DNA of 50,469 bases, from the NCBI GenBank assembly GCA_030528885.1, contig JAUMXY010000019.1:1-50469 (forward strand). Reading direction: 5' to 3'. Source of the DNA: Bacteroidales bacterium (GTDB lineage Bacteria > Bacteroidota > Bacteroidia > Bacteroidales > Bacteroidaceae). Position numbers and translations under genes: made by a program. Shown here piece after piece: positions 1,497 through 41,701 of this stretch (position 1 is the first letter of the stretch; the number at the start of each line of letters is the position of its first letter). The notes beneath the pieces are model-generated. The model was not told the DNA's origin, made no database searches, and worked only from the letters and a program-made list of their open reading frames with translations.

Positions 1497-2636
1497 ATGT
1501 TCATGAGTCACGTACATAAGAAACACTTTTTCATGCTATCACTTGCGTTCTTCTTTGGGACCGCAGTAATGGCAAACCGTGACCATAAGCAAGTTTCTGT
1601 TCCCCAACACAGCACTTTACACCAGGACAATCCGATTGACTCTGTGCAGACAGGGAACAAGAAGTCTTTTTTTTCTAATGCAGTAAATGGAATAACCAAT
1701 TTTTTCATGGGCTGCGACACCAACTATGTCACTCCCCAAAAATACCAATTGACAGCACAAGTTGAGCTTTCCTATTGGCATGATTATTACTCCATGCGTT
1801 CATCTGAAACAGGAAACAGAATGGTCATCGAATCTGACCCTTCCTGCATCCTTGGAGGATATCTTTATTACAGCATCTTTGGATATGGCGTGGTATGGAA
1901 TCTTAACGACTTAGGAATACCTGCAGGAAAAACCAACGGAACGTCCATGAGACATTCGTTTGTTCTTCACACAGCCAAATTCTTCGCTGAATATTACACT
2001 TTTAACTCAGGAAAGGGCGCAGAAATTACCAGTGTAAGCGGAATGGATTTAAGCGGCAAAGACAGAACCTTTAAAGGCCTGGACTCACGGTGCAAAGGCT
2101 TAAGCGCCATCTATTTCTTCAACAACAAGAAATTCTCATGGCCTGCTGCTTTTGGAGCTAATGCCGTACAAAGAAAGAGTTGCGGGAGTTGGAGTTTAGG
2201 ATTTCAGCTAAACCATCAAAAAATAAGTTTTGACAAAGAGGCATTGCCTGACTATTTAAGAGAAAATATCGACTCCACGTTACTCTTCAGTCATGTGAAC
2301 TATCACGACTACAACATTAGCATCGGCTACAATTACAACTGTGTATTAGGACGCAATGTGTTATTAGCAGCATCATTAATGCCCAATATTGGCTATCGTC
2401 GTTCCAACATCACAGAAGCCCAAGAAGAAAAGCACTCAATTCTCAACAACCTATCAACAGACTTGAATTTCAGACTTTCTTTATTCTGGAATAACACAAG
2501 AGTCTTTAGCGGCCTCATCTTTGAAGCCCACACTTATGCATACAGAAAAAACAAGTTCGGACTTACCAACACTTTTGGTACCCTCAAATATATTGTTGGA
2601 TTAAATTTCTGGAGAAAACCACAACCTAAATATTAA
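1497..2636 (+). CDS. DUF4421 family outer-membrane beta-barrel protein
   Basis: The 379-residue protein resembles the Bacteroidales DUF4421 family, uncharacterised proteins predicted to form outer-membrane barrels. It begins with a hydrophobic signal segment (about residues 10-26, ending near VMAN). The family pattern is visible: a DTNYVTPQKY start of the barrel, the KGLSAIYFFNNKKFSWPAAF block (about 200-220), alternating aromatic strands, and a C-terminal strand ending in GLNFW. A second ATG lies two codons in (1503), so the exact start is uncertain. It sits 17 bp upstream of the first CotH gene. That suggests co-expression at the cell surface, but no function is known for the family. Confidence 0.75.
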   Translation: MFMSHVHKKHFFMLSLAFFFGTAVMANRDHKQVSVPQHSTLHQDNPIDSVQTGNKKSFFSNAVNGITNFFMGCDTNYVTPQKYQLTAQVELSYWHDYYSMRSSETGNRMVIESDPSCILGGYLYYSIFGYGVVWNLNDLGIPAGKTNGTSMRHSFVLHTAKFFAEYYTFNSGKGAEITSVSGMDLSGKDRTFKGLDSRCKGLSAIYFFNNKKFSWPAAFGANAVQRKSCGSWSLGFQLNHQKISFDKEALPDYLRENIDSTLLFSHVNYHDYNISIGYNYNCVLGRNVLLAASLMPNIGYRRSNITEAQEEKHSILNNLSTDLNFRLSLFWNNTRVFSGLIFEAHTYAYRKNKFGLTNTFGTLKYIVGLNFWRKPQPKY

Positions 2637-2653
2637 TATTTGAAAAATAAATA

Positions 2654-5600
2654 ATGAAAGATATGAAGAAAACAGTAACGACTTTATTCTTAACCTTTTG
2701 CGCTTTACAAGGTTCCAGCCAAAATGCATGGATAGACATGACCGATGCCTATATCATCAATCCGAGGTTTGACAATAACGATGTCTACACGGGATGGGAA
2801 GGCACTAGTTTGGGTGCTTACAATCCGATAGAAAATGCTGAGCATTATGAAAAGACATACGACACATACCAAAGCATTTCAGGCCTGAAAGCAGGAAAAT
2901 ACCGCATTAGCCTTGATGCTTTCTATCGAATGGGTTATTCCGATAACGATTACACGCTTTATTCTTCAGGAGATTACAGCTTGAACCAACATGCAGTGCT
3001 CTATGCTAGAACATCAGACAACGAATTTACGGTCCCAATAGCACCCTCTTCATCTGCGGCTTTAGAGGAATCTTTGGGCGGAGGTATAAGCGAAATCGCT
3101 AGATGGGGAGAGACTCCGCTTTATATCCCCAACAACATGGAAGCAGCATATTACTGGTTTGAAGCTGGCCATTATGATAATAGCATAGAATTTGAGGTCG
3201 GCGAAGACGGCTTGCTTACTATTGGCATCAGGAAATACGAAACAATCCATCAAGACTGGACATGTTTGGATAATTGGAAATTAGAAGTTTGGGGAAAGGT
3301 TATCCCTGTCACCTCCGTTTCGTTATCTAAAACAAGTGTTGAATTGGCACCAACAGAATCTTATGAACTCACAGCAACAGTTTCTCCTCAAAACGCCACC
3401 ATCTCTAACGTTTCTTGGTCTTCTACAGATACAGACATTGCCGAAGTTGACCCAACAGGAAAAGTGACGGCTATAAGCGAAGGAGTGTGTTACATCATTG
3501 CAACATCAAAAGATAGCGCCGCAAAAACAGCACGTTGCAAAATTACCGTAAAAAACGGAGAAATCTCATCAGGCTCTATTATTATCAATGAAATTATGTC
3601 TTCAAATGTGGATGTATACCTTGATCCCTCATACAATTACGGAAGTTGGGTTGAGCTTTACAACCCAACCTCGCAAACAGTGACATTAGGAGAACTCTAC
3701 ATAACAGACGATCCGAACAATCTGAAGAAGAACCGCCTTATTAAAGAATATGGCGTAATACCAGCCAAAGGATATGCCCTGCTGAACTTTGACCATTATG
3801 AAGTGTGGACAAAGGCATCTTATCGCCAAATCAACGACAAACTAGACTGTGATGGCGGAACTATCATCATTTCAGATGGCACAAACATCCTAGCTCAACA
3901 AGACTATCCTGAAGCCATCTCACGCACCTCATATGCTCGTACAACAGACGGAGGTTCTGAATGGGGAATCACAGGCAATCCGTCTCCAGGAACTTCCAAT
4001 CAAGCAAATGGAGGTTTTGCACAAATCCAACTCACAGCTCCTGTGGTCGATAAAGACGCACAAGTATTCACTGGTACACTTCAAGTATGCGTAAACATTC
4101 CAGAGGGAGCCACTTTGCGATACACCACCGATGGTGTTGCACCAACTCTGAACAAGGGCAAAGTATCACAGACGGGTATTTTCAACATTAGTTCTACAAC
4201 CTGCCTGCGACTTCGACTCTTTAAGGATGGCTACCTTCCTTCACCAGTTGTTACTCGTTCTTACATCGAAGACAACGGGAATTATCCATTCCCCATTATC
4301 TCTATTGTTACCGAGGATGATCATCTGAACTCATCTGAATACGGAGTATTTCAGAAAGGACCTAATGGTCGTCCGGGCAATGGACAGTCCGATAAATGCA
4401 ACTGGAATATGGATTGGGATCGACCTGTTTCTTTTGAATACATTACAACAGATAACGAGTGTGTTATTTCTCAGGAATGCGATCTTGCCACATGTGGAGG
4501 TTGGAGCCGAGCTTCGGAACCTCATTCATTCAAGTTAAAAGCAAACAAAACTTACGACTTGAACAATTTCTTCCAAGCACAACTCTTTGAAGAAAAGCCT
4601 TTCATAAAGAACAAAACATTACAGATTCGTAATGGCGGAAATGACAATTGGGCACGAATGAAAGACGCTGGAATTCAGCAAATCGTAGCTCGAAGCGGTT
4701 TCAACGTCGACTATCAAGCATGGCAACCTGTGCACGTATTCTTCAACGGCAATCATTATGCAGTGTTGAACATGCGTGAACCGAACAACAAACATTACGC
4801 ATACGCAAACTACGGTATCGACACGGATGAGATGGACCAGTTCGAAATATCGCCAGACTCAGGCTACAGACAGATGGAAGGCACCGACGAAAGCTTTTTA
4901 CGCCTTGTTGAACTGAGCGAAACAGCTGACCAAGACAACACTTATGAGGAAATCAGCCAGATCCTTAACATTGATGAATATATCAATTACATGGCTGTAG
5001 AGCTTTACACAGGCAACTGGGACTGGCCACAAAACAATGTCAAAGGATTCAGAGACGTTAACGATGGTAAATTCCGTTTTGTCCTGTTCGACCTTGACGG
5101 AGCCTTTTCAACAAGTGAACCATTTAAACTATTCTTCAACAAACAGATGTACACTTTTGACGCATTAAGGGGGTATGACTATTCTATAGGGAAAAACGTT
5201 AATGGCACACGGCGATATTTAGAAATCAAATTCGTCACACTCTTCAAAAACATGCTAAAGAATAAGACGTTCCGCAAAAAATTCATTGACACATTCTGCA
5301 TTGTGGGTGGTTCTATCTTCCAACCGTCACATGTGTCAGAGATTATAGATGACATGAATGAATACCTTTCCTCTGGCGGATATGTAAGCCCCAGCGGAAC
5401 GGCCAGCAACATAAAAAGTACCCTTACTAAATCTTACAACAGCAACATGATGAACCAATTGAAGAATTGTTCCGATATGCTCCTGTCTTCTACCGAACGG
5501 CAAGCCTTCAGCATATCATCCAACACCATTGGTTCTAAAATAATGGTTAACGATATAGAGTTGCCGTATTCAGAATTCGAAGGCTATCTCTATGCCCCTA

Positions 5601-7027
5601 TCACAATAAAAGCAACAGCACCCGCTGGATACAAATTCATAGGATGGACCGAAACAGAGACTACTACACGTGAAACCATATTCGATTTCGGAAGCACATG
5701 GAAATACTATGATGAAGGCTCTCTTGACGCAGCCAACTGGACATCCCGATTCTATAGTGACACAAAATGGCAATCAGGAGTAACCCCAATTGGATACGGA
5801 AAGAATCAACCAACCAGCACAGCAAGCAACCTGTCATGCTATTATTTCCGCAGATCATTCACACTTGACAAGGCACCTGCTGCAAACGACGAATTTATCC
5901 TTGATTTCTCCATCGACGATGGCATGGTATTATATATCAATGGTAACGAAGCGGGACGATACAATATGCCTTCAGGCGACATCTCATACGACAGCTTTGC
6001 ATCCACTCACGCTCCTGGTAATCCAGATTCAGGAAGCATGATTCTCAACGGTTCTCTTTTCAAAAAAGGCATAAATGTGATTGCTGTTGAAATACACAAC
6101 AATCAGCTTTCCTCCAGTGACATCGTGTGGGATGCCTCACTCTCTACTACTAAACAGAAAGAGATCAATGAAAACGAATACATCTCCACCGACTCCGAAT
6201 ACACACTGCCCACCTCTGGCTCACAGAAGCTCATCGCTGTATTTGAAGAAATAACCAAGGAAGAGATGCTCGCTGAAGGCATTACGCCAATCCGAATCAA
6301 CGAAGTCAGCGCTGCCAACTCCATGTACATCAACGACTACTTCAAGAAGAACGACTGGATTGAGCTGCACAACACCACAGCCGAAGACATAGACATCGCA
6401 GGCATGTACATATCAGACAATGCTGACAAGCCACGGAAATACCAGGTGCCATCCGACAACACGGCGCTCAACACCATCATACCTGCCAACGGGTTCAAAG
6501 TCATCTGGTGCGACAAGCTCGACAACATTGGGGCTGACATACACACAAGCTTCAAGCTGGCGGCTGAAGGAGGTGACGTGCTCATCACAACAGAAGACTA
6601 CGCCGACACGCTGACCTACGCGCCGCACAGCGGAACACAGACCTTCGGGCGCTACCCTGACGGGGCCAACGACACCTACGTCATGAACGCGCCAACCATC
6701 GCCAAGAGCAACATGATATGCTCTTACGACACCGTGTTCATCGTGCCAGTCAATCCAGAGCCTAACAGCATACGCTCCTACATCAAGGAGGGAGGCATAG
6801 CCATCGCATACGCCGACGGAGCGCTGAACGTCAAGAGCGAGGAGGCGCCCATCAAGAGCGTAGCAATTTACAGCGTGACTGGAACAAGAATGCCGGCTAA
6901 GGCCATCATGAGAAACGGAGGCAGGTTTGCGACTGTCAGCCTCGAAGCATTGCCTAAGGGCATCTACATGGCAAAAGCGGCAACGAAAGACGGCGATGAA
7001 TGCCACATCAAATTCGCCATAAAATAA
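2654..7027 (+). CDS. Secreted multidomain CotH-kinase protein, paralogue 1
   Basis: The 1457-residue protein reads as follows. Signal peptide (about 1-22); an N-terminal jelly-roll-like domain opening WIDMTDAYIINPRFDN (24-213); a bacterial Ig-like BIG2 domain (216-298); a lamin-tail domain (307-450); a chitobiase C-terminal-like domain with LRYTTDGVAPT (459-540); and a CotH kinase domain (about 543-960) with the metal-binding FDLDGAFS near 813. Then come a second jelly-roll (about 1013-1166), a second lamin-tail domain (1209-1350) and a C-terminal tail with IYSVTGTRMP (from about 1406) like a type IX sorting domain. CotH domains are Fam20C-like protein kinases that act outside the cytoplasm. 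The target here is unknown. Residues from about 1175 to the end are encoded by DNA identical to the next gene. Confidence 0.85.
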   Translation: MKDMKKTVTTLFLTFCALQGSSQNAWIDMTDAYIINPRFDNNDVYTGWEGTSLGAYNPIENAEHYEKTYDTYQSISGLKAGKYRISLDAFYRMGYSDNDYTLYSSGDYSLNQHAVLYARTSDNEFTVPIAPSSSAALEESLGGGISEIARWGETPLYIPNNMEAAYYWFEAGHYDNSIEFEVGEDGLLTIGIRKYETIHQDWTCLDNWKLEVWGKVIPVTSVSLSKTSVELAPTESYELTATVSPQNATISNVSWSSTDTDIAEVDPTGKVTAISEGVCYIIATSKDSAAKTARCKITVKNGEISSGSIIINEIMSSNVDVYLDPSYNYGSWVELYNPTSQTVTLGELYITDDPNNLKKNRLIKEYGVIPAKGYALLNFDHYEVWTKASYRQINDKLDCDGGTIIISDGTNILAQQDYPEAISRTSYARTTDGGSEWGITGNPSPGTSNQANGGFAQIQLTAPVVDKDAQVFTGTLQVCVNIPEGATLRYTTDGVAPTLNKGKVSQTGIFNISSTTCLRLRLFKDGYLPSPVVTRSYIEDNGNYPFPIISIVTEDDHLNSSEYGVFQKGPNGRPGNGQSDKCNWNMDWDRPVSFEYITTDNECVISQECDLATCGGWSRASEPHSFKLKANKTYDLNNFFQAQLFEEKPFIKNKTLQIRNGGNDNWARMKDAGIQQIVARSGFNVDYQAWQPVHVFFNGNHYAVLNMREPNNKHYAYANYGIDTDEMDQFEISPDSGYRQMEGTDESFLRLVELSETADQDNTYEEISQILNIDEYINYMAVELYTGNWDWPQNNVKGFRDVNDGKFRFVLFDLDGAFSTSEPFKLFFNKQMYTFDALRGYDYSIGKNVNGTRRYLEIKFVTLFKNMLKNKTFRKKFIDTFCIVGGSIFQPSHVSEIIDDMNEYLSSGGYVSPSGTASNIKSTLTKSYNSNMMNQLKNCSDMLLSSTERQAFSISSNTIGSKIMVNDIELPYSEFEGYLYAPITIKATAPAGYKFIGWTETETTTRETIFDFGSTWKYYDEGSLDAANWTSRFYSDTKWQSGVTPIGYGKNQPTSTASNLSCYYFRRSFTLDKAPAANDEFILDFSIDDGMVLYINGNEAGRYNMPSGDISYDSFASTHAPGNPDSGSMILNGSLFKKGINVIAVEIHNNQLSSSDIVWDASLSTTKQKEINENEYISTDSEYTLPTSGSQKLIAVFEEITKEEMLAEGITPIRINEVSAANSMYINDYFKKNDWIELHNTTAEDIDIAGMYISDNADKPRKYQVPSDNTALNTIIPANGFKVIWCDKLDNIGADIHTSFKLAAEGGDVLITTEDYADTLTYAPHSGTQTFGRYPDGANDTYVMNAPTIAKSNMICSYDTVFIVPVNPEPNSIRSYIKEGGIAIAYADGALNVKSEEAPIKSVAIYSVTGTRMPAKAIMRNGGRFATVSLEALPKGIYMAKAATKDGDECHIKFAIK
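6175..7023 (+). repeat. 849-bp perfect direct repeat, copy 1 (CotH tail)
   Basis: This block is identical base for base to 10129-10977, at a constant offset of 3954. It covers the second lamin-tail domain and the C-terminal sorting tail of paralogue 1, and stops just before the stop codon. Upstream of it the two genes are clearly diverged, third codon positions included. Recent gene conversion or a tail duplication explains this best. Confidence 0.9.
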
Positions 7028-7084
7028 AAACATATCATCATCTAATCAATAAACGGCAAAATATTATTAATACACACCCACAAA

Positions 7085-10000
7085 ATGAAAAAGTTTTTCA
7101 CCACGCTGCTCGTAACCGCAATATCGCTGCCGAGCTTTGCACAAGAGTGGATTGACGTGACCGACAGCTACGTCACCAATCCCCGATTTGACGACAACGA
7201 CATTAAGACAGGATGGATTGGCACTACTTTTAGCGCCAACAATCCTGTCGGTAATGCCGAACATTACAACAAGAATTACGACACTTATCAGAAACTTTCA
7301 GGACTTCCTGCAGGTAAATACCGTGTTAGTCTCAATGCTTTCTACCGCATGGGAAGCGCTAGCAATGACTTTTCACTATATGACAGCAAGAACTACAGCG
7401 GCAGCCAAAATGCCAAACTTTACGCAAAATCCTCTGCTGGAGAAAAGACAGCGTCTATTGTTCCTGCCTCTTCTGCTGCTCTTGAGGAATCTCTTGGCGG
7501 AAAATCAGCAGAAGTCAGCAACAACTCTGGTTGGTGGTGGTGGAATACGGCCTATTATCTTCCTGACGACATGGAAGCCGCCCACTACTGGTTTGAAGCT
7601 GGCAAATACAAGAACTCCTTAGAGTGCAACGTCAAAGATGACGGGGAACTGACCATAGGTGTCCGCAAATCAACAAAAATCAACAACGACTGGACTTGCC
7701 TTGACAATTGGAAACTGGAATTTTGGGGAACAGTCAGCAACCTCAGCATGCCAGAAGAGGAGTTGTCGTTACTACCTCACGAGATACGGCAAATCACCGT
7801 TACAGCCAAGCCTTATGATGTCATCTACAACAACCTGAAGTGGATGTCTTCCAATCGCAATGTTGCCACAGTCAACGAAAACGGAGAAATCACAGCCACG
7901 GGAGAAGGATTCTGCTACATCACAGCCATATCCAAAGCGAACTCCTCCGTCAACACTCGATGCAAAGTAACCGTAAAAGCCAACGAAGATATTGCAAAAG
8001 CAATTGTCATCAATGAAATAATGGCAGCAAACGTCGATGTTTACCTTGACCCCTCTTTCAACTATGGCAGTTGGGTTGAATTGTACAATCCTTCTGAGAT
8101 GAACCTTTCATTAGGCGGGCTATACATAACCGATGACCCTGACAATCTGAAGAAACATCGTTTAATAGATGATTACGGTCTACTTGCCGCAAAAGGATAC
8201 GCCTTGCTGAACTTCGACCATTTCGAAATATTCAAAGCTGCATCCTACCGCCAGATTGACGACAAACTCAATTGCGATGGAGGAGAAATCATTATATCCG
8301 ACGGTAAGAACATCATCACTCGCCAAGAATACCCAGCAGCCATCTCACGTATATCCTATGCACGTACCATAGACGGAGGCAATGTATGGAGTTTTACAGG
8401 AAATCCTTCGCCAGGCATCTCGAACCAGTCCAATGGAGGATTTGCGAAGACTCAGCTGGAAGCTCCTTACATTGACAAAGACGCACAAGTCTTTGAAGGC
8501 AGCTTGCAAGTATGCGTCAACATTCCTCCCAGTACCACATTAAGATACACCACAGATGGCACAGCCCCCACTCTGACGAATGGAAAAACATCCTCTACAG
8601 GTTTGTTCACTGTAAAAAGTACAACCTGCTACCGTTTCCGCCTGTTTAGAAATGGTGCACTCCCCTCTCCTGTTGTCACGCGTACATATATATATAAAGA
8701 CAAGACATACCCATTCCCTATCATCTCAGTTGTTACAGATGACAGAAATCTCAACTCCACAGAATATGGCGTGTTCAAAGAAGGCCCGAATGGCCGAAGC
8801 GGACGTGGAAGTGAGAATGATTGCAACTGGAACATGAGTTGGGACAGACCCGTTTCTTTTGAATACATCACAACAGATAACGAATGTGTCATTTCTCAGG
8901 AATGCGATTTATCTATGTGCGGAGGCTGGAGCCGTTCGTGGAGCCCACATTCATTCAAGCTCAAAGCTTCCAAAACCTACGACTTTCAAAATTTCTTTGC
9001 TGCTCAGCTTTTCGACAAAAAGCCATACATCAAGAGCAAGACTTTACAGATTCGTAATGGTGGAAACAATGTGCTGACCTATGGAGAAATTGGCGGCAGA
9101 ATCAGAGACGCCATTCTACAGCAAGTCGTTGCACGCAGCGGCATCAACATTGACTATCAAGAATGGCAGCCTGTCCATGTCCTCATCAATGGCAAATATT
9201 ACGCCACATTAAGCATGCGTGAGCCCAATAACAAACACTACGCTTACGCCAACCACGGCATTGATACCGATGAGATGGAGCAGTTTGAAATGGACGCAGA
9301 CTCTGGATACGTACAGATGGAAGGAACTGACGAAGCGTGGCTCCACCTGATTGACTTGAGCAAGACAGCAGCCAATGAAGACTCATACACGGAAATCCGT
9401 CAAATGCTGGACATTGACGAATACATTAATCTGATGGCAACAGAGTTCTATCTTGGCGGCACCGACTGGCCCCACAACAACGTAAAAGGATTCCGCGATG
9501 TGAACAATGGCAAATTCCGTTTTGTCCTTTTCGACCTCGACTTTGCTGGACAGACCACGACTCCCATACAAGATTTCTTCAACAAAGAGAAGTTCCAATC
9601 AGAACACGAACTGATGGGATATGACTATTCGCAGAGCAAGAGTCTCAACGGCACCAAGCGAAGCAGCCAAAACACTTTTGTTACGCTATTCAAGAATCTC
9701 TTGAAAAATAGCCAGTTCCGCAAGCAATTCATCGACACATACTGCATCATCGGAGGTTCCGTCATGCAACCCAAGTATGTAAAAGAGATTGCCAACGAGA
9801 TGAAGAACTACATCCAAAAAGGCATCTACTCTGAAGACCAATTTGACCCCTCACTCTCATCAAACTACGTTATCAAGACGTTCACAACTTCATGGAACAG
9901 CAATATGATTGATCACATGAGGAAACGTTCTGAAATGGGCATATCAACAGTTGAAAAACAATCCGTTTCCCTCTCTGCCAATGCGCCTGGAGCTAAACTC

Positions 10001-10987
10001 TCCCTCAATGGTCTCAACCTGCCCTATGCTGAATTCAATGGCTACCTTTTTGCACCAATTCGCTTGAAAGCAACAGCACCGGCAGGTTACAGATTTGCAG
10101 GCTGGAAAGACGCTACCAAGACTGGCAGCGAATACATCTCCACCGACTCCGAATACACACTGCCCACCTCTGGCTCACAGAAGCTCATCGCTGTATTTGA
10201 AGAAATAACCAAGGAAGAGATGCTCGCTGAAGGCATTACGCCAATCCGAATCAACGAAGTCAGCGCTGCCAACTCCATGTACATCAACGACTACTTCAAG
10301 AAGAACGACTGGATTGAGCTGCACAACACCACAGCCGAAGACATAGACATCGCAGGCATGTACATATCAGACAATGCTGACAAGCCACGGAAATACCAGG
10401 TGCCATCCGACAACACGGCGCTCAACACCATCATACCTGCCAACGGGTTCAAAGTCATCTGGTGCGACAAGCTCGACAACATTGGGGCTGACATACACAC
10501 AAGCTTCAAGCTGGCGGCTGAAGGAGGTGACGTGCTCATCACAACAGAAGACTACGCCGACACGCTGACCTACGCGCCGCACAGCGGAACACAGACCTTC
10601 GGGCGCTACCCTGACGGGGCCAACGACACCTACGTCATGAACGCGCCAACCATCGCCAAGAGCAACATGATATGCTCTTACGACACCGTGTTCATCGTGC
10701 CAGTCAATCCAGAGCCTAACAGCATACGCTCCTACATCAAGGAGGGAGGCATAGCCATCGCATACGCCGACGGAGCGCTGAACGTCAAGAGCGAGGAGGC
10801 GCCCATCAAGAGCGTAGCAATTTACAGCGTGACTGGAACAAGAATGCCGGCTAAGGCCATCATGAGAAACGGAGGCAGGTTTGCGACTGTCAGCCTCGAA
10901 GCATTGCCTAAGGGCATCTACATGGCAAAAGCGGCAACGAAAGACGGCGATGAATGCCACATCAAATTCGCCATAAACACTCATTAA
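7085..10987 (+). CDS. Secreted multidomain CotH-kinase protein, paralogue 2
   Basis: The 1300-residue paralogue of the gene before it starts 57 bp after that gene's stop. A signal peptide (MKKFFTTLLVTAISLPSFA) is followed by the same order: N-terminal jelly-roll-like domain, BIG2-like domain (about 217-298), lamin-tail domain (306-450), chitobiase C-terminal-like domain (457-535) and CotH kinase (about 539-970). The acidic FDLDF motif is near 817, where paralogue 1 has FDLDG. It lacks the roughly 160-residue jelly-roll that paralogue 1 carries after its kinase, and passes from AGYRFAGW almost directly to EYISTDSEY (from about 1016). From there to the end it is identical to paralogue 1. Likely exported to the cell surface and anchored or released by the type IX-like tail. 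Substrate unknown. Confidence 0.85.
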   Translation: MKKFFTTLLVTAISLPSFAQEWIDVTDSYVTNPRFDDNDIKTGWIGTTFSANNPVGNAEHYNKNYDTYQKLSGLPAGKYRVSLNAFYRMGSASNDFSLYDSKNYSGSQNAKLYAKSSAGEKTASIVPASSAALEESLGGKSAEVSNNSGWWWWNTAYYLPDDMEAAHYWFEAGKYKNSLECNVKDDGELTIGVRKSTKINNDWTCLDNWKLEFWGTVSNLSMPEEELSLLPHEIRQITVTAKPYDVIYNNLKWMSSNRNVATVNENGEITATGEGFCYITAISKANSSVNTRCKVTVKANEDIAKAIVINEIMAANVDVYLDPSFNYGSWVELYNPSEMNLSLGGLYITDDPDNLKKHRLIDDYGLLAAKGYALLNFDHFEIFKAASYRQIDDKLNCDGGEIIISDGKNIITRQEYPAAISRISYARTIDGGNVWSFTGNPSPGISNQSNGGFAKTQLEAPYIDKDAQVFEGSLQVCVNIPPSTTLRYTTDGTAPTLTNGKTSSTGLFTVKSTTCYRFRLFRNGALPSPVVTRTYIYKDKTYPFPIISVVTDDRNLNSTEYGVFKEGPNGRSGRGSENDCNWNMSWDRPVSFEYITTDNECVISQECDLSMCGGWSRSWSPHSFKLKASKTYDFQNFFAAQLFDKKPYIKSKTLQIRNGGNNVLTYGEIGGRIRDAILQQVVARSGINIDYQEWQPVHVLINGKYYATLSMREPNNKHYAYANHGIDTDEMEQFEMDADSGYVQMEGTDEAWLHLIDLSKTAANEDSYTEIRQMLDIDEYINLMATEFYLGGTDWPHNNVKGFRDVNNGKFRFVLFDLDFAGQTTTPIQDFFNKEKFQSEHELMGYDYSQSKSLNGTKRSSQNTFVTLFKNLLKNSQFRKQFIDTYCIIGGSVMQPKYVKEIANEMKNYIQKGIYSEDQFDPSLSSNYVIKTFTTSWNSNMIDHMRKRSEMGISTVEKQSVSLSANAPGAKLSLNGLNLPYAEFNGYLFAPIRLKATAPAGYRFAGWKDATKTGSEYISTDSEYTLPTSGSQKLIAVFEEITKEEMLAEGITPIRINEVSAANSMYINDYFKKNDWIELHNTTAEDIDIAGMYISDNADKPRKYQVPSDNTALNTIIPANGFKVIWCDKLDNIGADIHTSFKLAAEGGDVLITTEDYADTLTYAPHSGTQTFGRYPDGANDTYVMNAPTIAKSNMICSYDTVFIVPVNPEPNSIRSYIKEGGIAIAYADGALNVKSEEAPIKSVAIYSVTGTRMPAKAIMRNGGRFATVSLEALPKGIYMAKAATKDGDECHIKFAINTH
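10129..10977 (+). repeat. 849-bp perfect direct repeat, copy 2 (CotH tail)
   Basis: This is the partner of 6175-7023. Recombination between the two copies would delete or duplicate 3954 bp and leave an intact chimeric reading frame. The block looks richer in G and C than the kinase part of paralogue 1. Confidence 0.9.
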
Positions 10988-11149: not shown

Positions 11150-12184
11150 ATGAAACAAACAATTCTCGTAACAGGCGGAACAGGCTTCATCGGCTCGCAT
11201 ACTACCGTAGAATTGCAACAAGCGGGCTATGACGTTGTCATCATCGACAACCTTTCCAATTCCAATGCAAACGTAGTTGACGGCATAGAAAAAATCACAG
11301 GCATACGTCCTGCATTTGAGCAAGTTGACCTTAATGATTATGCTGCCACAGAAGCTGTCTTCAAGAAATACCAGATAAAAGGATGCATTCACTTTGCAGC
11401 ATCCAAGGCTGTTGGCGAATCCGTAGAAAAGCCATTGCTCTACTATCGCAACAACCTCAACTCACTCATGAACGTCCTTGAGCTAATGACTAAATACGGC
11501 AGCAAGGGCATCATTTTCTCATCCTCATGCACAGTATATGGGCAGCCCACCCCAGAGAACCTTCCTGTAACAGAGCAGGCACCCATCCAAAAGGCACTCT
11601 CTCCATACGGCAACACCAAGCAAGTGAATGAAGAAATCATAGAGGACTACATCCATTCAGGCGCACCCATCAAGTCTATCATTCTGCGCTACTTCAACCC
11701 CATCGGAGCACATCCATCCGCTCATATTGGCGAGTTGCCCAACGGCGTTCCCATGAACCTGATTCCATTCGTCACCCAGACGGCAATTGGCATCCGCAAG
11801 CAGCTCAAGATATTCGGCAACGACTATAACACTCCTGACAAAACCTGCATACGAGACTACATCTATGTCGTAGACCTAGCAAAGGCACATGTAAAGGCCA
11901 TGCAGCGTGTACTGGAGCAGGAGACTGATCCTGTAGAAGTATTCAACATCGGAACAGGACACGGCTATTCAACCCTCGAAATCGTTGAAAGCTTCGAGCG
12001 CGCCACAGGAGTGAAACTACCTTGGGAGTATGCTCCACGACGTGAAGGTGATATCGAAGCCATTTGGGGCAACGTGGACAAAGCCAACAAAGTTCTTGGC
12101 TGGAGCGCCGACACCCCCTTGGACGAGATACTCTCCTCGGCATGGAAATGGCAAGTAAAACTCCGTGAAGACGGAATACAATAA
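11150..12184 (+). CDS. galE: UDP-glucose 4-epimerase
   Basis: The 344-residue protein interconverts UDP-glucose and UDP-galactose for the Leloir pathway and for supply of galactose to surface polysaccharides. It is an extended short-chain dehydrogenase. The NAD-binding motif GGTGFIGSHT is at residues 8-17. The catalytic Ser/Thr region reads SSSCTVYG and the catalytic YxxxK is the YGNTK stretch, followed by the family's RYFNPIGAHPS. Length matches typical bacterial GalE (about 338-345). It is monocistronic here, with its own -7 box upstream and gene-poor sequence downstream. The protein is cytoplasmic and uses a tightly bound NAD. Confidence 0.95.
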   Translation: MKQTILVTGGTGFIGSHTTVELQQAGYDVVIIDNLSNSNANVVDGIEKITGIRPAFEQVDLNDYAATEAVFKKYQIKGCIHFAASKAVGESVEKPLLYYRNNLNSLMNVLELMTKYGSKGIIFSSSCTVYGQPTPENLPVTEQAPIQKALSPYGNTKQVNEEIIEDYIHSGAPIKSIILRYFNPIGAHPSAHIGELPNGVPMNLIPFVTQTAIGIRKQLKIFGNDYNTPDKTCIRDYIYVVDLAKAHVKAMQRVLEQETDPVEVFNIGTGHGYSTLEIVESFERATGVKLPWEYAPRREGDIEAIWGNVDKANKVLGWSADTPLDEILSSAWKWQVKLREDGIQ

Positions 12185-18147: not shown

Positions 18148-19557
18148 ATGGAACCAACTCCAAAACAACAGTGGGATAGATGCCTCGAAATCATTCGCGA
18201 CAATATCACACCAGAACAATTCGCGGCTTCGTTTGCCTTTGTCGAGCTTCACAGCTTCGAGAATGGCAAACTGGTGCTCAATGTGCCCAGCGAGTTTGTC
18301 AAGAAGTTTTTGGAAGACAATTTCCTGCCGCTGATGGCATCTACATTCAAAAGAGTATTTGGCAACAGCATCAACTCTTTATATTATAATGTAGCAGTGG
18401 TCAAAGCCAAGCAAGGCGGAGATGTGAAAGAAAAGACGGACATCGCACCAAGGATTGTCAATGGCGACCCTCGAACTGATGCACGCAAAGCGCCAGATGA
18501 TGTCACAGCACCTCTGGTGCAGGATCTCGATTCTCAACTCTACCCTCATTACACTTTTGCCAATTATATCGAAGGCGAAAGCAACAGGCTGGCACGTTCT
18601 GTAGGTGAATCCATCGCCAACAATCCAGCCAAGACATTTAATCCCCTCTTTGTCTACGGTCCTTCAGGATGTGGAAAGACGCACCTGATCAACGCGATAG
18701 GAATGCGCGTCAAGGAACTTCACCCACAGATGCGTGTACTGTACTTGTCTGCACATCTGTTTACTGTACAATACACCGACGCCGTGAGGCAAAACAAGGT
18801 GAATGACTTCATTCGATTCTACCAGACGATTGACACACTGATTCTTGATGATGTTCAGGAACTTTCAGGAAAGACACAAACCCAAAACACGTTCTTCCAC
18901 ATATTCAATCATCTGCATATCAACGGCAAACAAATCATCCTTTCAGCCGACCGCCCTCCTATTGCCATCCAAGGGCTTGAAGACCGTTTGCTTACACGCT
19001 TCAAATGGGGCATGCAGGCTGAGATAGAAAAGCCTACGCAAACACTTCGCCACAGCATACTTGCCGCCAAGGTGGAAAAGGAAGGACTCAACATCCCAGC
19101 CAATGTACTGACATTCATCGCAGAGAACATTGATGACAGCGTGCGTGATTTGGAAGGAATCATCAACTCCCTGATGGCTTATTCTGTTGTTTACAACTGC
19201 AACATCAATATGGGGCTGGTACAAAAAGTTATGCCTCGATTTGTGGAGAGAAACGACCAGCCCATCACTATTGATGACGTTAAACAATGCGTATGCAATC
19301 ATTTTAACCTGAAGATATCTCAGATAGATTCGCGCATTCGTACCCAGCAAATTGCTTATGCACGTCAAGTTGCCATGTATCTGGCCAATGAACTGACCGA
19401 CAAGTCCCACGTACAGATAGGTCTCCATATAGGAAATCGCAACCATTCAACCGTCATACATGCCATCAAACTGATAAAAGACATGATGGATGTAAACGAA
19501 CAGACAAGAACCGATATTGACGAATTGGTTACCACAATCAAACACGCGAGGAAATAA
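18148..19557 (+). CDS. dnaA: Chromosomal replication initiator protein DnaA
   Basis: The 469-residue AAA+ ATPase binds DnaA boxes at oriC and melts the origin. Domain I is at about 1-85 (WDRCLEIIRDNITPEQF at the start) and is followed by a variable linker (90-130). The AAA+ domain follows, with Walker A GPSGCGKT at 171-178 and Walker B LILDD at 231-235. The C-terminal DNA-binding domain includes the signature region IGLHIGNRNHSTVIHAI, in which the usual FGGRDHST reads IGNRNHST. Length is normal. It is a single-gene unit with its own promoter and a strong terminator. No dnaN and no DnaA-box cluster lie beside it, so an origin cannot be inferred here. Confidence 0.97.
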   Translation: MEPTPKQQWDRCLEIIRDNITPEQFAASFAFVELHSFENGKLVLNVPSEFVKKFLEDNFLPLMASTFKRVFGNSINSLYYNVAVVKAKQGGDVKEKTDIAPRIVNGDPRTDARKAPDDVTAPLVQDLDSQLYPHYTFANYIEGESNRLARSVGESIANNPAKTFNPLFVYGPSGCGKTHLINAIGMRVKELHPQMRVLYLSAHLFTVQYTDAVRQNKVNDFIRFYQTIDTLILDDVQELSGKTQTQNTFFHIFNHLHINGKQIILSADRPPIAIQGLEDRLLTRFKWGMQAEIEKPTQTLRHSILAAKVEKEGLNIPANVLTFIAENIDDSVRDLEGIINSLMAYSVVYNCNINMGLVQKVMPRFVERNDQPITIDDVKQCVCNHFNLKISQIDSRIRTQQIAYARQVAMYLANELTDKSHVQIGLHIGNRNHSTVIHAIKLIKDMMDVNEQTRTDIDELVTTIKHARK

Positions 19558-19640: not shown

Positions 19641-20041
19641 CGTGAGTTCGATATAACAAAGATATGTTTTTGTAGTGCCTCGCAAAGCGACTCTGTATAT
19701 CGAACAGATGTTTTTGATAACGTGTCGTGCCCTTTCCCCTCCAAAATTCCAAATCATTGATACTCATACATGCAGCCCGTGTCGGAAATAATAGGCACAG
19801 GGTGTTCGTGTTATTATGCACACGGTGTCTGAAACCTTGTCTGCACGGTGTGCGTTTGCAGCCACTTGCCTTGCCCTCCTCAAAAAGAAAAGAGGCACAA
19901 GGTAAAAATACCCTGTGCCTCCATGCTGAATTGTCTGTGTCTGACAAATGTCGTGGACGTTTGGAAAGGCGAGTTCGATATGACAGAAATATGTTTTTGT
20001 AGTGCCTCTGCGAGGCAGAATCTTTATATCGAACTGACGTT
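19641..20041. repeat. Composite dispersed repeat, copy 2 (inverted relative to copy 1)
   Basis: The order is a REP-like unit D (19641-19710), a 204-bp core (19727-19930) that is the reverse complement of 34-237, a 39-bp spacer, then REP-like unit E (19970-20041). Units D and E share GAGTTCGATAT, ATATGTTTTTGTAGTGCCTC and TATATCGAAC, so each folds as a long imperfect hairpin with GTTCGATAT/ATATCGAAC ends. This copy lacks the 68-bp cassette seen in copy 1. Open frames through it (19727-20002, 19848-20462) overlap the repeat and the nitroreductase gene and are not credible genes. Confidence 0.8.
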
Positions 20042-36781: not shown

Positions 36782-39700
36782 ATGCAACCATTAAGAATTT
36801 ATAAGGCTTCGGCCGGTTCAGGAAAGACGTTCACCTTGGCTGTTGAATACATCTCCCTGCTGGCCATCAACCCGATGGAATATCAAAACATCCTGGCTGT
36901 GACCTTCACCAACAAGGCTACTGCCGAGATGAAACAGCGCATCTTGGGAACGCTCTACGGCATTGCGCATGGATTGAAAAGCAGCGACGGATATGTCGAG
37001 AAGATATTGGAGAGCCTGAAAGAAAAGGCAACCCTGCCTCAGTATCAAGAAGAGCCCTATCGCTCAGCACTGAGAGAGATGAACTGCCACAAACTGAGAC
37101 TGCGCGCAAAGGAGGCTTTGGCTAACATCATACACGACTACAGCCGCTTCCACATCACAACCATCGACTCGTTCTTCCAGAGCATTGTTCGCGAAATTGC
37201 CTACGAACTGGAACTTTCTACAAAGCTGAAGGTGGAGCTGGACGAAACAGAGGTGCTTTCCAATGCTGTGGAACAGATAATAGAGCAGCTGAAAGAGGAC
37301 TCAAGCGAATTCCGTACCATCATCGAGTTCATCGAGGAGAAAATCAGAGAAAACCGTTCGTGGCAAGTCGAAGAGACTGTAAAGGAGTTTGGCAGCAACA
37401 TTTTCAAGGAAAAATACCTGATTCATGGCGAAGAGATGCGCAAGCAGATAACGGACTTCGGCGCCATCTTCAAATATCGCAATGTCATCAACGACTATCT
37501 GAGCCAGAAGAAGCAGGATGTCATCAATCTGGGCATCCAGATGAAGCAAGCCTATGAAAGCATAGGAATGACGGAAAAGGACGGCAGCAAGAGTGTCGTC
37601 ACATTCATAGAGAAGGTGTGCGCCTACCAAATAACAGAGCCAACCAATAATGCCAAAGGTACATTCTCTGACACTATAGAGGAGCACATCACAAACAGCG
37701 AGAAATGGTTCAAGAAGGGGTCGAAGAATCAAGCATGGCTCAAGCCGCGCGTTGAACTGACGCTGATGCCTTTGCTGGCAGAAACCTTCAAGGCACACGA
37801 CGAATATGTCAGCCATTTGCTTACTGTCCATGCCATAGGCCAGCACCTCTACTCGCTGATGCTGCTCAACAAGATTAGCCAGACGGTGAAATCGCTGAAT
37901 GAGGAGAGCAGCCGATTCCTCCTTTCTGAAACAGCCAATTTCCTGCGCAATGTCATCAACAACCAAGACATTCCTTTCATCTACGAAAAGACTGGTGCTG
38001 TCATCAAGCACATCATGATTGATGAATTTCAAGATACCTCCACCCTGCAATGGAGCAACTTCAAACCGCTCATCCTGAACAGCCTTGCCACCGATGGTTC
38101 ATGCCTGATTGTGGGTGACGTGAAGCAGAGCATCTACCGATTCCGTAACTCTGACTGGCAGATACTGAACAGCATAGAACAAGACGAAGAACTTAAGAAC
38201 CACATGGGAAAAATCCCTGCCACGTACAATTTCCGTTCTTCAAGAAATGTGGTGGAATTCAACAATGAGCTGTTCAAGAATGCAGTCAACATCATGAAGG
38301 AAGACTGCCCTGCCCTCTCCTTAGCTTATGGCGATGTGAAACAGATAGCCAAGAAAGAAGAACATGCGGGTTTTGTACGGATAGAGAACATCGACTATCA
38401 CAGCATCGACACGGAAAACCTGCCTGCGACTTGGGCAAAAGAAACAGCTGAAAACTATCATGAAGCAACCTTGCAGCGCATTCAACTATCAGTCAAAGAA
38501 CTAATAGACAATGGCGTGAAAGCCAACGATATTACAATTCTCATACGGACCAACAATGAAGTACAGCTCATCAGCGATTACTTCAATCAACACCCTGATG
38601 TGGTCAACGTAAAGATTGTGTCTGACGATGCCTTCAGGCTCGATGCTTCGCCAGCCATCAACATCATCATTTGTGCATTGAGAGTGCTGGCCGAGCCAAG
38701 CAGCTCGCTGCATCTCGCCGCTCTCACCTATCATGCCTCCTCTATTCCGTCAGCCTTCAATCAGGAGGAGCAGGAAAAGATGCGATACCTTCCCATCGCA
38801 GAGCAAGTCGAACGCATTTATCAAATGTTCGACCTCGACCAGTTACCCCATCAGGACGCCTACCTCTTCTTCTTCAACGATCTGATAGAGCAGTTCTGTC
38901 AGGAAAACCTCACAGACCTCGATACATTCTTGCAAGCGTGGGATGAGAAACTTTGCGAGAAGACCATTCCCAACGGAACGGCAGATGGCGTGCGCATCAT
39001 GACGATGCACAAGTCTAAGGGTTTGGAATTCTCCAGTGTCATCATTCCATCATGTTCGTGGTCCATCAAGCCCAAAGACAAAGAAGTGATATGGTGTATG
39101 CCCAAGCAAGCGCCTTACAACATGATGCCGCTTCTTCCCATCAGCGTCAATCGAGCCAAGAACAACAGCATTTTTGCCGATGACAGAAAAGAAGAAGAGT
39201 TGAAAACACTAGTGGACAATATCAATGTATTGTATGTAGCATTCACTCGTGCCAAGAATAACCTCATCATACTGACAGGCAACAAGTTGGGAGAAACATT
39301 GAATGAGAATGCACCCATAGAAAGCGCGCAGTCATTCCTCATCAGGTCTATCCCTGAGCAGATGCAGAAGAGCGATATTGATGGCATTATCACCCGTTAT
39401 GAGCTGGGGACTATCGTTCCCACTCAGGCTCCAAAAGAAGAAAAGGAAAAGAACGTCATGGAGTGCGAATACGACTCATTGCCCGTATCGTTCGTCTCAC
39501 ATCCGTCAGCAGCGACATTTCGCCAAAGCTACGAGTCAGACCTGTTCATCACCCAAGACTCTCCCAATCCACGCTCGCAGAAGCATGCAGAACGCATCCG
39601 TCTCATCAGTTTAGGAAATCTCTATCACAGCATATTCCAGCACATCCACATTCCCAATGATGTGCCCCATGCCATCCAAATGCTGAAATCAAAAGGATGC

Positions 39701-40075
39701 TTTGGTACATTGCTCGATGCGAAGGAAGCACAGGTTACCGTTACCAAACTGATTGAAGGCATTGCAGAGAATCACCCCGAATGGTTCTCGCCCGAATGGC
39801 AAACACTTAACGAGCGCGCCATCCTCTACCTCGAGAACAAAACACTGAAAACCAAGCGACCAGACCGCGTCATTGTCAAAGGGAACCAAGCCATCATCAT
39901 CGACTACAAGACAGCGCAAGGCGTCATCAAGACAGAAGCAGACGGGTGCCTTGTCGCTCCCAAGGACAACAGGGAACAACTGGAAAATTACAAAGAGCTG
40001 CTGCTGCAGATTGGCTATACGGACGTAAAAGCCTTCTTGTGGTACATACTTGATAATATCATTATTCCTATATAA
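36782..40075 (+). CDS. addA: AddA/RecB-like UvrD-family helicase-nuclease
   Basis: The 1097-residue protein has the superfamily 1A helicase motifs: Walker A KASAGSGKTFTLA (about 9-21), FTNKATAEMKQRI, Walker B-type MIDEFQDTS (about 418-426), GDVKQSIYRFRNSD and, near 820, VAFTRAKNNLI. At the C-terminus, PDRVIVKGNQAIIIDYKTAQ (about 1023-1043) carries the D and DYK residues of a RecB-type PD-(D/E)XK nuclease. With the AddB-like protein downstream it should form a heterodimer that unwinds and resects double-strand breaks for RecA repair. The intervening CotH gene separates the two subunits. Naming as addA rests on domain content and the AddB neighbour. Confidence 0.85.
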   Translation: MQPLRIYKASAGSGKTFTLAVEYISLLAINPMEYQNILAVTFTNKATAEMKQRILGTLYGIAHGLKSSDGYVEKILESLKEKATLPQYQEEPYRSALREMNCHKLRLRAKEALANIIHDYSRFHITTIDSFFQSIVREIAYELELSTKLKVELDETEVLSNAVEQIIEQLKEDSSEFRTIIEFIEEKIRENRSWQVEETVKEFGSNIFKEKYLIHGEEMRKQITDFGAIFKYRNVINDYLSQKKQDVINLGIQMKQAYESIGMTEKDGSKSVVTFIEKVCAYQITEPTNNAKGTFSDTIEEHITNSEKWFKKGSKNQAWLKPRVELTLMPLLAETFKAHDEYVSHLLTVHAIGQHLYSLMLLNKISQTVKSLNEESSRFLLSETANFLRNVINNQDIPFIYEKTGAVIKHIMIDEFQDTSTLQWSNFKPLILNSLATDGSCLIVGDVKQSIYRFRNSDWQILNSIEQDEELKNHMGKIPATYNFRSSRNVVEFNNELFKNAVNIMKEDCPALSLAYGDVKQIAKKEEHAGFVRIENIDYHSIDTENLPATWAKETAENYHEATLQRIQLSVKELIDNGVKANDITILIRTNNEVQLISDYFNQHPDVVNVKIVSDDAFRLDASPAINIIICALRVLAEPSSSLHLAALTYHASSIPSAFNQEEQEKMRYLPIAEQVERIYQMFDLDQLPHQDAYLFFFNDLIEQFCQENLTDLDTFLQAWDEKLCEKTIPNGTADGVRIMTMHKSKGLEFSSVIIPSCSWSIKPKDKEVIWCMPKQAPYNMMPLLPISVNRAKNNSIFADDRKEEELKTLVDNINVLYVAFTRAKNNLIILTGNKLGETLNENAPIESAQSFLIRSIPEQMQKSDIDGIITRYELGTIVPTQAPKEEKEKNVMECEYDSLPVSFVSHPSAATFRQSYESDLFITQDSPNPRSQKHAERIRLISLGNLYHSIFQHIHIPNDVPHAIQMLKSKGCFGTLLDAKEAQVTVTKLIEGIAENHPEWFSPEWQTLNERAILYLENKTLKTKRPDRVIVKGNQAIIIDYKTAQGVIKTEADGCLVAPKDNREQLENYKELLLQIGYTDVKAFLWYILDNIIIPI

Positions 40076-40089
40076 TAACTAACTAACAA

Positions 40090-41701
40090 ATGAAAACAAA
40101 GAGAACCGCTTTTTTGCTGACCATGCTTGCCAGCATGACAACAGCTACACCAACCTATGCACAGTTTGAAGGATTCGGCATGGGCGGATTCAATATGGGG
40201 AACTTCAATAGTGAAGCACACCAAGATGGAACAGCTGGAGTCCAATCTACCTGTCATCACCATTACCACCAATACCCCTCTGAATGCCCAGAAGAAAGTC
40301 GGTGCCAAGATGAGTATCGGAGATTACGAAGGAGACATCGGCATCAAGCTGCGTGGAAACAGCTCGCTATCTTTCAACCAAAAGAAATACACCATTGAAA
40401 CAAGAGATGAAAACGGGAACGAGCTAAAGGCGGCTCTGCTGGACATGCCAGCAGGCAAAGATTGGGTGCTTCTCGCACCTTATAACGATGTGTCTATGGC
40501 ACGCGACCCACTCGCCTTCCAGCTGTGGAGAGACATGGGACATTGGGCACCACGCACACAAATGGTCGAGGTGCTGATGGATGGTGAATACCTTGGCGTC
40601 TATATCCTCTCAGAAGCAATCAAGCGAGGCTCTTCACGCGTCAACATTCCCAAACTGCAAGCGGAAGACACTGAGGGCATCAACCTGACAGGCGGATACA
40701 TCCTACGCATCGATACCTATAACGAGGAGGACGCCACATTCCCCTCTAAAGTGCCAGGCATTGGCGAAGGGAGCATGAACAGCCAGATTACATGGTCATG
40801 CATCTATCCTAAAAAGAAGAATCTGCAGCCAGAACAAATGGCTTACATCCAGAACTACATCGACGAGATGGAGCAAGCCATTCAATCAGAGAATTTTGCA
40901 GACCCTCAGCAAGGTTATGCAAAATACATTGACGTGCCCTCGTTTGTCGACTACTTCATCCATACAGAACTGAGCTTAAATGCTGATGGATACAAAAGAA
41001 GCGCCTACTTCTACAAGGAGCGGCAAAATGCTGACGGTACAGGGGGGAAGCTCTTTGCTGGATCGGTTTGGGACTACAACTTGGCTTATGGGAATTGTAA
41101 TTTCTGTAATGCGGACAAAATCGACGCATGGTGCTACGAAGGAGGCAACACACAACCAACCCCAGCCTTGTGGCAGCGATTGCTGCAAGACCCAGCTTTC
41201 CGAAAGGCTGTAAAGGAACGCTATCAGTCATTACGAAAGACTAGTCTAAGCAATAAAGCCATCATCGACTACATAGACCAGCATGCTCAACTCGTGGCGC
41301 AGGCAAAAGATCGCCACTTCAAAGAATATCCAGAACTGCTGGAGAACGAACATGTAAAGAAGGACAACGAACGCCAGACACAAAAGGATGGACAGCAACC
41401 ACAAGGTATGTTTGGAGGATTTGGAATGTTTGGCCGAGTTGGTGGATTTGGAGGTTTCCCCATGATGCAAGGCGGAGGATTTGGAGGAGGCAATGCTATC
41501 TCATGGTTTGCCGCCTATCGCGTAAGTTCTTACGAAGAGGAAATAAAAATTCTCAAACAATGGCTTGCTAACCGCCTCGACTTTCTCGATCAAAACATAG
41601 ACCGTTTCGACAAGGACTTCGAACCACGCATACAGAAACCTGCCGAGAGAGCGCCCATGAACAACGGCGGATTTCCCTTCTTCCCTTTTCCTGGTATGTA
41701 A
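40090..41701 (+). pseudogene. CotH-kinase protein gene with apparent one-base frameshift
   Basis: The first frame begins 14 bp after addA with a clear signal peptide (MKTKRTAFLLTMLASMTTAT, ending near TYAQ) and FEGFGMGGFNMG. The kinase part continues in a frame one base later to 41701. Dropping one G from GGGG at 40197-40200 joins the frames and gives 536 residues. The joined protein has a CotH domain with the LRGNSSLSF start, LLAPYNDVSMARDPLAF, GYILRIDTYNEEDA and the acidic metal motif VWDYNLAYGN, then a Gly/Phe/Met-rich stretch (about 435-465) and a helical end. Either a sequencing error, a recent inactivating mutation or phase variation explains the shift. Without the first frame the kinase has no export signal. 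Confidence 0.75.

Follow-up and report, generated by a model that had tools for sequence, protein, structure and literature searches.

How can two neighbouring genes end in the same 849 bases, silent positions included, and differ throughout the rest of their length? The question is raised by a tandem pair of genes, A and B, that encode predicted CotH proteins in a Bacteroidales bacterium (GenBank assembly GCA_030528885.1, here genome G000). The window, meaning the whole stretch of DNA that was analysed, is contig JAUMXY010000019.1 with 50,469 nucleotides, the entire contig 66 of an assembly that comprises 73 contigs and is 89% complete. The comparison set consisted of 45 genomes of the genus (rumen-type Bacteroidales). 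We consider it very likely that recurrent homologous recombination between the direct 3′ repeats of these tandem paralogues homogenises their tails within species, while the cores evolve independently. Concerted evolution is thus confined to the 3′ segment, with recombination between direct repeats as its best explanation, and the window holds the freshest event.

An identical 3′ block in two diverged genes

The identity that had been noticed from the sequence alone is exact. Positions 6175–7023 equal positions 10129–10977 over exactly 849 bases, and not one base further at either end. The two copies lie on the same strand and in the same codon phase at a spacing of 3954 bp, which is divisible by 3, and all of their fourfold degenerate sites (123/123) are identical. 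The remainder of the two genes proved to be diverged throughout, as had also been stated: the N-terminal parts share 58.8% of their nucleotides, and the core, which runs from the first lamin-tail domain (LTD1) to the CotH domain, shows 66.9% nucleotide and 65.3% amino acid identity, with identity at 31.4% of 191 fourfold sites. In a permutation on the variable sites of the pair, the longest identical run spanned 537 sites; shuffled data averaged 15.6, and none of 2000 shuffles gave a run as long. When the own genome was searched with the block at the DNA level, these two copies were the only ones found.

All domain calls in this text are profile matches. The CotH profile PF08757 scores 97.9 and 82.2 bits against the two putative CotH proteins, with a cut-off of 23.8. 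According to Pfam, both also contain a Big_2 domain, two lamin-tail domains (LTD), a chitobiase-C-like domain and an InlB-type Flg_new_2 domain. In A, the Flg_new_2 match falls short of a full stretch and stays below the cut-off, and an insert found in A and missing from B sits inside this region. A match to this A-only insert was present in 29 of 38 relative loci; it is therefore probably ancestral in A and probably lost in B. It is also missing from two A-type genes, namely that of G020 and the third gene of G005.

The block begins inside Flg_new_2 (residues 992–1041 of B, with the block starting at residue 1016), at the point where the A-only insert ends. It stops at the second base of the last sense codon of A, one base ahead of the stop codon. 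In between lie the second half of Flg_new_2, the second lamin-tail domain (LTD2) and a match to the type A sorting tail of the type IX secretion system (T9SS). The sequence-only reading had described the block as a complete module of LTD2 plus sorting tail. LTD2 and the sorting-tail match are indeed inside, but with its start within Flg_new_2 and its end one base ahead of the stop codon of A, the block is not exactly such a unit. The borders in the window are points of homology loss, the A-only insert on one side and the gene end on the other, and not those of a chosen module.

A tandem pair older than the species split

A core was counted as B-type if it was at least 72% identical to the core of B; the next best value was 68%. 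Such a core occurs in 7 of the 45 genomes (G000, G005, G007, G009, G012, G019 and G065). In G000, G019, G005 and G009, both genes are on one contig and B directly follows A. In G007, G065 and G012, the contig of A stops in the tail and that of B opens with the end of an A-type tail, so that B presumably follows A there too. A DUF4421 gene lies upstream of A in 7/7 of these genomes, and galE lies downstream of B in the 6/7 whose stretch extends that far. B is absent from 19 further genomes, since galE comes right after A in the stretch fetched from them. Other absences of B may be assembly gaps: G023 is represented by a contig-end fragment alone, and G014, G018 and G062 gave no match at the threshold.

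The two genes are tandem paralogues that stem from one old duplication in this genus. The core phylogeny together with the shared synteny supports a duplication older than the species split. When the core tree is rooted with four genes of other genera, all B cores fall into a single clade (support 100) inside the genus, whose exact place among the A cores is weakly supported. In several species, the flank behind B is similar, over the printed stretches, to that behind A genes without a partner, which fits a downstream copy that retained the original flank. The pair-bearing genomes are scattered on this tree and on a tree of alaS, and thus B has been lost several times or has moved between species at the same place. 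The alaS tree asks for 6 changes of B presence, at least 5 of them forced by starred branches, and the genomes with B cluster no more than in shuffles. This is a single-gene tree of 28 genomes chosen from the 45, and G009 does not group with G012 in it, unlike in both CotH cores. rpoB was tried as a species marker and proved unusable for four of the pair genomes (no match in G000, G005 and G007, a 75-aa end in G012).

Tails group by genome and cores by gene type

The relation between the two genes in the window recurs in all seven genomes with the pair. We compared the tails of A and B with their other alignable parts within each genome, and the nucleotide identities were 100 vs 65–69% in G000, 80 vs 69% in G019, 80 vs 68% in G005 and 82 vs 66–70% in G009. 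In G007, the tail is represented by two pieces with 93 and 96% identity (vs 66–67%). The tail of G065 gave 88% (293 bp), 97% (378 bp) and 100% (141 bp) vs 69%, and that of G012 gave 99% over 173 bp vs 69–70%.

In the codon alignment, the cores of A and B share 59.7–68.5% of their amino acids within a genome, while between species the values are 70.7–83.5% for B–B (21 pairs) and 64.8–83.5% for A–A (21 pairs). In the tails, A and B of one genome share 77.0–99.6%, against 56.2–79.7% for tails of the same type between species (42 pairs). Pairs of A from one species with B from another are covered by the trees and not by these figures. Concerted evolution makes paralogues closer to each other than orthologues are; this was found in the tail, with one exception of 64 codons, and not in the core, in line with a case that is limited to one segment.

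Our careful trees contained 21 rows, seven rows with partial or odd tails having been left out (G061, G025, G005x, both of G065 and both of G012). The B cores formed one clade (100/100), and a clade made of A and B of one genome was rejected in 5/5 cases (approximately unbiased test, p of 3.3e-5 or less). The tails, in contrast, paired by genome in 5/5 genomes with long tails (support of at least 100/98), and the same test rejected a B-tail clade (p of 8e-81). Quick trees with all 28 rows again placed the B cores on one side of a branch with support 100, and the tail labels needed 7 changes each. In the quick tail tree, the partial tail of B from G065 falls beside a short tail piece of G025, not directly with the tail of A from its own genome.

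Runs of identical sites lead in the same direction. Over core plus tail, a run as long as the observed one appeared in 0 or 1 of 2000 shuffles in 7/7 pairs, and all six control pairs were negative, with 137 to 1764 of 2000 shuffles as long. Silent sites, which had been proposed as a check along the alignment of the two genes, are homogenised in the tail as well, clearly in four of the seven genomes (fourfold identity of 100% in G000, 89% in G007, 88% in G065 and 95% in G012) and mildly in three (60% in G019, 56% in G009 and 52% in G005), compared to 31–49% in the cores. The stretches with the highest identity differ from species to species; about 20 residues at the start of the tail are unhomogenised in five of the seven and homogenised in the window and in G012. 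Therefore the tracts are of different extent and age, and not one ancestral state.

Some observations weigh against this interpretation. The tails of the orthologues G009_B and G012_B are 79.7% identical (over 64 codons), which exceeds the lowest value for a paralogous pair of tails, 77.0%. Restricted to the tail, the run test gives a weak result for G009 and G012 (32 and 34 of 2000 shuffles as long). In G005, the fourfold identity of the tail (52% of 94 sites) is only slightly above that of the core (49% of 204), and it is therefore total identity, the run test and the tree that carry the case of this genome. Three of the pairs have partial tails (64 codons in G012, 98 in G065 and 156 in G007), with A and B on separate contigs. 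On contig 42 of G202 (L203), which belongs to another genus, it is the core and not the tail of a tandem pair that is more alike (fourfold identity 150/210 vs 21/52). Finally, conversion is a process that we infer from a sequence pattern, with one genome per species.

How the tails may be kept alike

RecA-dependent recombination works well on direct repeats of about 800 bases with some 4 kb between them. The tails of A and B, in direct orientation at about this distance, would allow one to be copied over the other repeatedly, by gene conversion or by paired unequal exchanges with the same result; the two routes are indistinguishable here. In the window, the tract is bounded by heterology, to the left by the A-only insert and to the right by the gene end, and would be too recent for any difference to have accrued. 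A conversion that halts where homology is lost would explain these borders without any appeal to the function of a module. Ongoing exchange may keep the tails alike enough for further exchange, while the cores, having drifted below the identity that recombination needs, would escape it. The RecA machinery is presumably involved, and the last event was presumably one tract; any direction of copying would likewise be inferred. Import of the tail from another species was considered and set aside, although it may have occurred: no donor was found among 60 relatives, in which the best long DNA match to the tail was 75% over 656 bases; shorter pieces (183 bases or less) match these relatives at 81–91%.

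The idea that gene conversion keeps the export tail uniform can be retained as far as conversion, or an equivalent homologous exchange, is concerned (7/7 pair genomes). Uniformity as its purpose is not supported, given the homogenised silent sites, the tract borders, which vary among species and in the window fall where homology is lost, the divergence of the tails of genomes without B from that of the window, and the tandem CotH pairs of other genera, four of five of which, by genome, have tails less alike than their cores. Unequal crossover between the tails, which had been predicted to delete or duplicate the 3954-bp unit in frame, would remove or double B cleanly. This is plausible given the patchy presence of B, but no tail–tail deletion or duplication, and no recombinant from such a crossover, was seen in the genomes compared. 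The system bears on how recombination between shared ends could drive the gain and loss of surface proteins.

Alternative explanations

It is possible, though we think it rather unlikely, that gene turnover is the actual cause. In this scenario, unequal crossover in the tails would delete and re-duplicate B, and birth and death instead of nonreciprocal conversion would homogenise the tails. The scattered occurrence of B on the core and alaS trees and the 19 genomes in which galE directly follows A are what one would expect. However, the B cores are one old clade with a divergence of its own, which argues that B is not being re-made from A, and a triplet of such genes at the locus was seen in none of the seven pair genomes.

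We regard it as improbable that the identity in the window arose during assembly, by collapse of two similar tails whose single consensus was then threaded through both genes, although the exact figure of 100% may in part be such an artefact. The assembly is fragmented, and a search for its 16S rRNA gene found none, which suggests a short-read assembly. Missing 16S genes are common in short-read metagenome-assembled genomes, and a single short-read contig rarely holds an exact repeat of 849 bp. In three relatives with near-identical tails (G007, G012 and G065), contigs end within the tail, which is usual for short-read assemblies at repeats, yet the contig of the window runs through both copies. 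Both genes in the window are nevertheless open, each with its own flanks. Moreover, the tails of G019, G005 and G009 were assembled with about 20% differences and show the same grouping, and collapse cannot produce that. The exact 100% might thus include some collapse; our main conclusion is independent of this because the tails of those three genomes were assembled with differences. A practical warning is that genes with such tails are broken there in short-read assemblies and may also be merged.

Three contigs of G065 (L025, L093 and L094) have an identical 141-bp end in the tail. This shared end probably reflects a true repeat at which a short-read assembler left its k-mer overlap.

Even less probable in our view is that selection, and not recombination, keeps the tail uniform for a shared secretion or anchoring machinery. 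Such a machinery may be in use: the sorting-domain profiles TIGR04183 and PF18962 both match 15/15 aligned tails with E values up to 0.01 (in the window itself at 20–22 bits, under the cut-offs of 23 and 27), and SprA, the part of the T9SS apparatus that was searched for, is present in the own genome with 2690 bits. But selection on the protein alone does not account for silent sites, which are homogenised in this genus too. Orthologous tails differ in 20–44% of their amino acids, so that the exact sequence seems to be dispensable, and the tails of genomes without B differ from that of the window by 29–35%.

Tandem CotH pairs of other genera were also considered in this respect. Six genomes were picked by eye among the matches listed, with at least two tail matches close together on a contig; five gave measurable pairs and one (G226) gave none. 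In four of the five, the tail is less alike than the core (amino acid identities of 53.6 vs 77.4% in G202, 52.1 vs 60.7% in G293, 63.2 vs 66.1% in G156 and 55.7 vs 65.0% in G280), which speaks against a general selection for uniform tails. The fifth, G371, has three or more CotH-type genes in tandem on its contig 55 (L208). One pair among these has tails with 87% and cores with 76% nucleotide identity; the tails are closer in protein (89.8 vs 68.7%) and not at fourfold sites (40/69 vs 118/197). This pair looks like a case of selection; the two other comparisons in G371 have 25 tail codons. Which part stays alike therefore varies among tandem CotH pairs.

That the tail was copied just once, recently and in this strain alone, which the perfect identity in the window might suggest and which had been proposed as well, can be dismissed with near certainty since the same relation recurs at different ages in 7/7 genomes with the pair.

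Base composition of the tails

The tail in the window has a GC content at third codon positions (GC3) of 0.70, compared to 0.43 and 0.50 for the cores; 16 other genes of the window that were measured range from 0.44 to 0.63. Elsewhere in the two genes, sliding blocks of 264 codons reach at most 0.519 in A (183 blocks) and 0.602 in B (153 blocks). Across the seven pair genomes, the excess of tail GC3 over the core, corrected by the same columns of 20 A-type genes from genomes without B, rises with tail identity (Spearman 0.96; 0.94–1.0 when leaving one out), as GC-biased gene conversion predicts. This correlation is post hoc and ignores kinship, and G012 contributes 45 codons. For GC at fourfold sites (GC4), the corresponding value is 0.89 (leave-one-out 0.83–0.89, n=7).

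Inside the tails, identity within a genome was not correlated with GC3 (54 tail segments, centred correlation 0.10, with 1168 of 5000 shuffles as high). The GC3 excess is high as well in two genomes without B, namely G016 and G002, whose two A-type genes lie on different contigs, and the more alike core of G202 shows no rise in GC3, both of which argue against GC-biased conversion. As the correlation had n=7, was post hoc and blind to kinship, and the test within the tail failed, this idea was rejected as a main claim and kept as a lead. It remains a doubtful proposal that each round of conversion raises the GC content of silent sites, that the GC3 excess tracks recency and that the tail repeats are a hot spot which makes B come and go. 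If true, bacterial GC-biased gene conversion could be studied in the twin CotH tails as in a natural experiment.

Comparison with known systems

The process is already known from a few microbes, and the CotH tails are a fresh, replicated case. Sections of a report on Helicobacter pylori describe that the 3′ segments of babA/babB and homA/homB are alike within a strain while the 5′ and middle parts follow the gene type, which is attributed to concerted evolution by intragenomic recombination (PMC3960876). As in our case, these are paralogous surface-protein genes with 3′ ends homogenised within a genome. Unlike here, the bab genes of that account lie at separate loci in strains of one species, whereas we find a tandem pair across the species of a genus. 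The CotH pair further differs in encoding putative T9SS-type proteins and in having a heterologous insert that marks the border in the window.

The methanogen genes mtrA-1 and mtrA-2 are described as an old duplicate pair within one operon; gene conversion homogenises only the MtrA domain that they share, and one copy carries a distinct added domain (PMC4632066). In contrast to the CotH pair, they encode an archaeal metabolic enzyme with another domain layout. A survey reported 26 prokaryotic genes in long-lasting concerted evolution, mostly key members of important pathways (PMC6053082). Its cases resemble ours in having paralogues closer than orthologues, conserved synteny and similarity at silent sites; segment-limited surface proteins, such as the CotH pair, are not treated in the relevant passages of that survey.

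Within the Bacteroidales, the adhesin and C-terminal domains of the Porphyromonas gingivalis gingipains have been described in terms of domain rearrangement and allelic exchange (PMC5266723). The gingipains are T9SS surface proteins, as A and B are predicted to be, with common C-terminal modules and domain exchange. The word "concerted" is absent from the main text of that paper. Among the open-licence papers listed in literature searches, none dealt with CotH or T9SS tails of rumen Bacteroidales evolving in concert, which is weak evidence of absence.

Features of the locus and of the window

The positions of the features discussed above are listed in Table 1. Searching the CotH domain of A against the sequences of solved structures gave three matches, all with E values of 0.13 or worse and thus uninformative, and an Rfam search of the window at gathering thresholds gave no match.

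Table 1. Features of the tandem CotH locus (positions in the window)
Feature	Position	Strand	Remarks
DUF4421 gene	1497..2636	+	conserved upstream neighbour
Gene A	2654..7027	+	CotH protein, 1457 aa; two lamin-tail domains, A-only insert, match to a T9SS-type sorting tail
CotH domain of A (PF08757)	4496..5395	+	Pfam profile
A-only insert, about 160 aa	5684..6174	+	not in B; ends where the block begins
Identical 849-bp block, copy in A	6175..7023	+	exact sequence match
Second lamin-tail domain of A (PF00932)	6308..6532	+	within block
T9SS type A sorting-tail match of A (TIGR04183)	6824..7015	+	21.7 bits, just below cut-off 23
Gene B	7085..10987	+	tandem paralogue of A, 1300 aa, without A-only insert
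CotH domain of B (PF08757)	8921..9934	+	Pfam profile
Identical 849-bp block, copy in B	10129..10977	+	exact sequence match
Second lamin-tail domain of B (PF00932)	10262..10486	+	within block; sequence identical to that in A
T9SS type A sorting-tail match of B (TIGR04183)	10778..10954	+	21.4 bits
galE-like gene	11150..12184	+	conserved downstream neighbour

A third CotH gene is located at 40157–41701 (205.6 bits). It is short, and no other Pfam domain was found in it. It is flanked by a gene for a UvrD-type helicase (36782–40075) and one for a PD-(D/E)XK nuclease (41756–44824), a pair that recalls AddAB and that we take to be a candidate for it.

The window also contains a dispersed repeat of about 205 bp at 33–237 on the forward strand and at 19727–19930 on the reverse strand. 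The own genome has 66 matching places, the first 300 bases of the window among them, and 31 of these match over at least 160 bp at 93–100% identity. The repeat looks like a high-copy element family. Lastly, a dnaA-like gene is present at 18148–19557 (Bac_DnaA, 197 bits), and a replication origin may lie near it.

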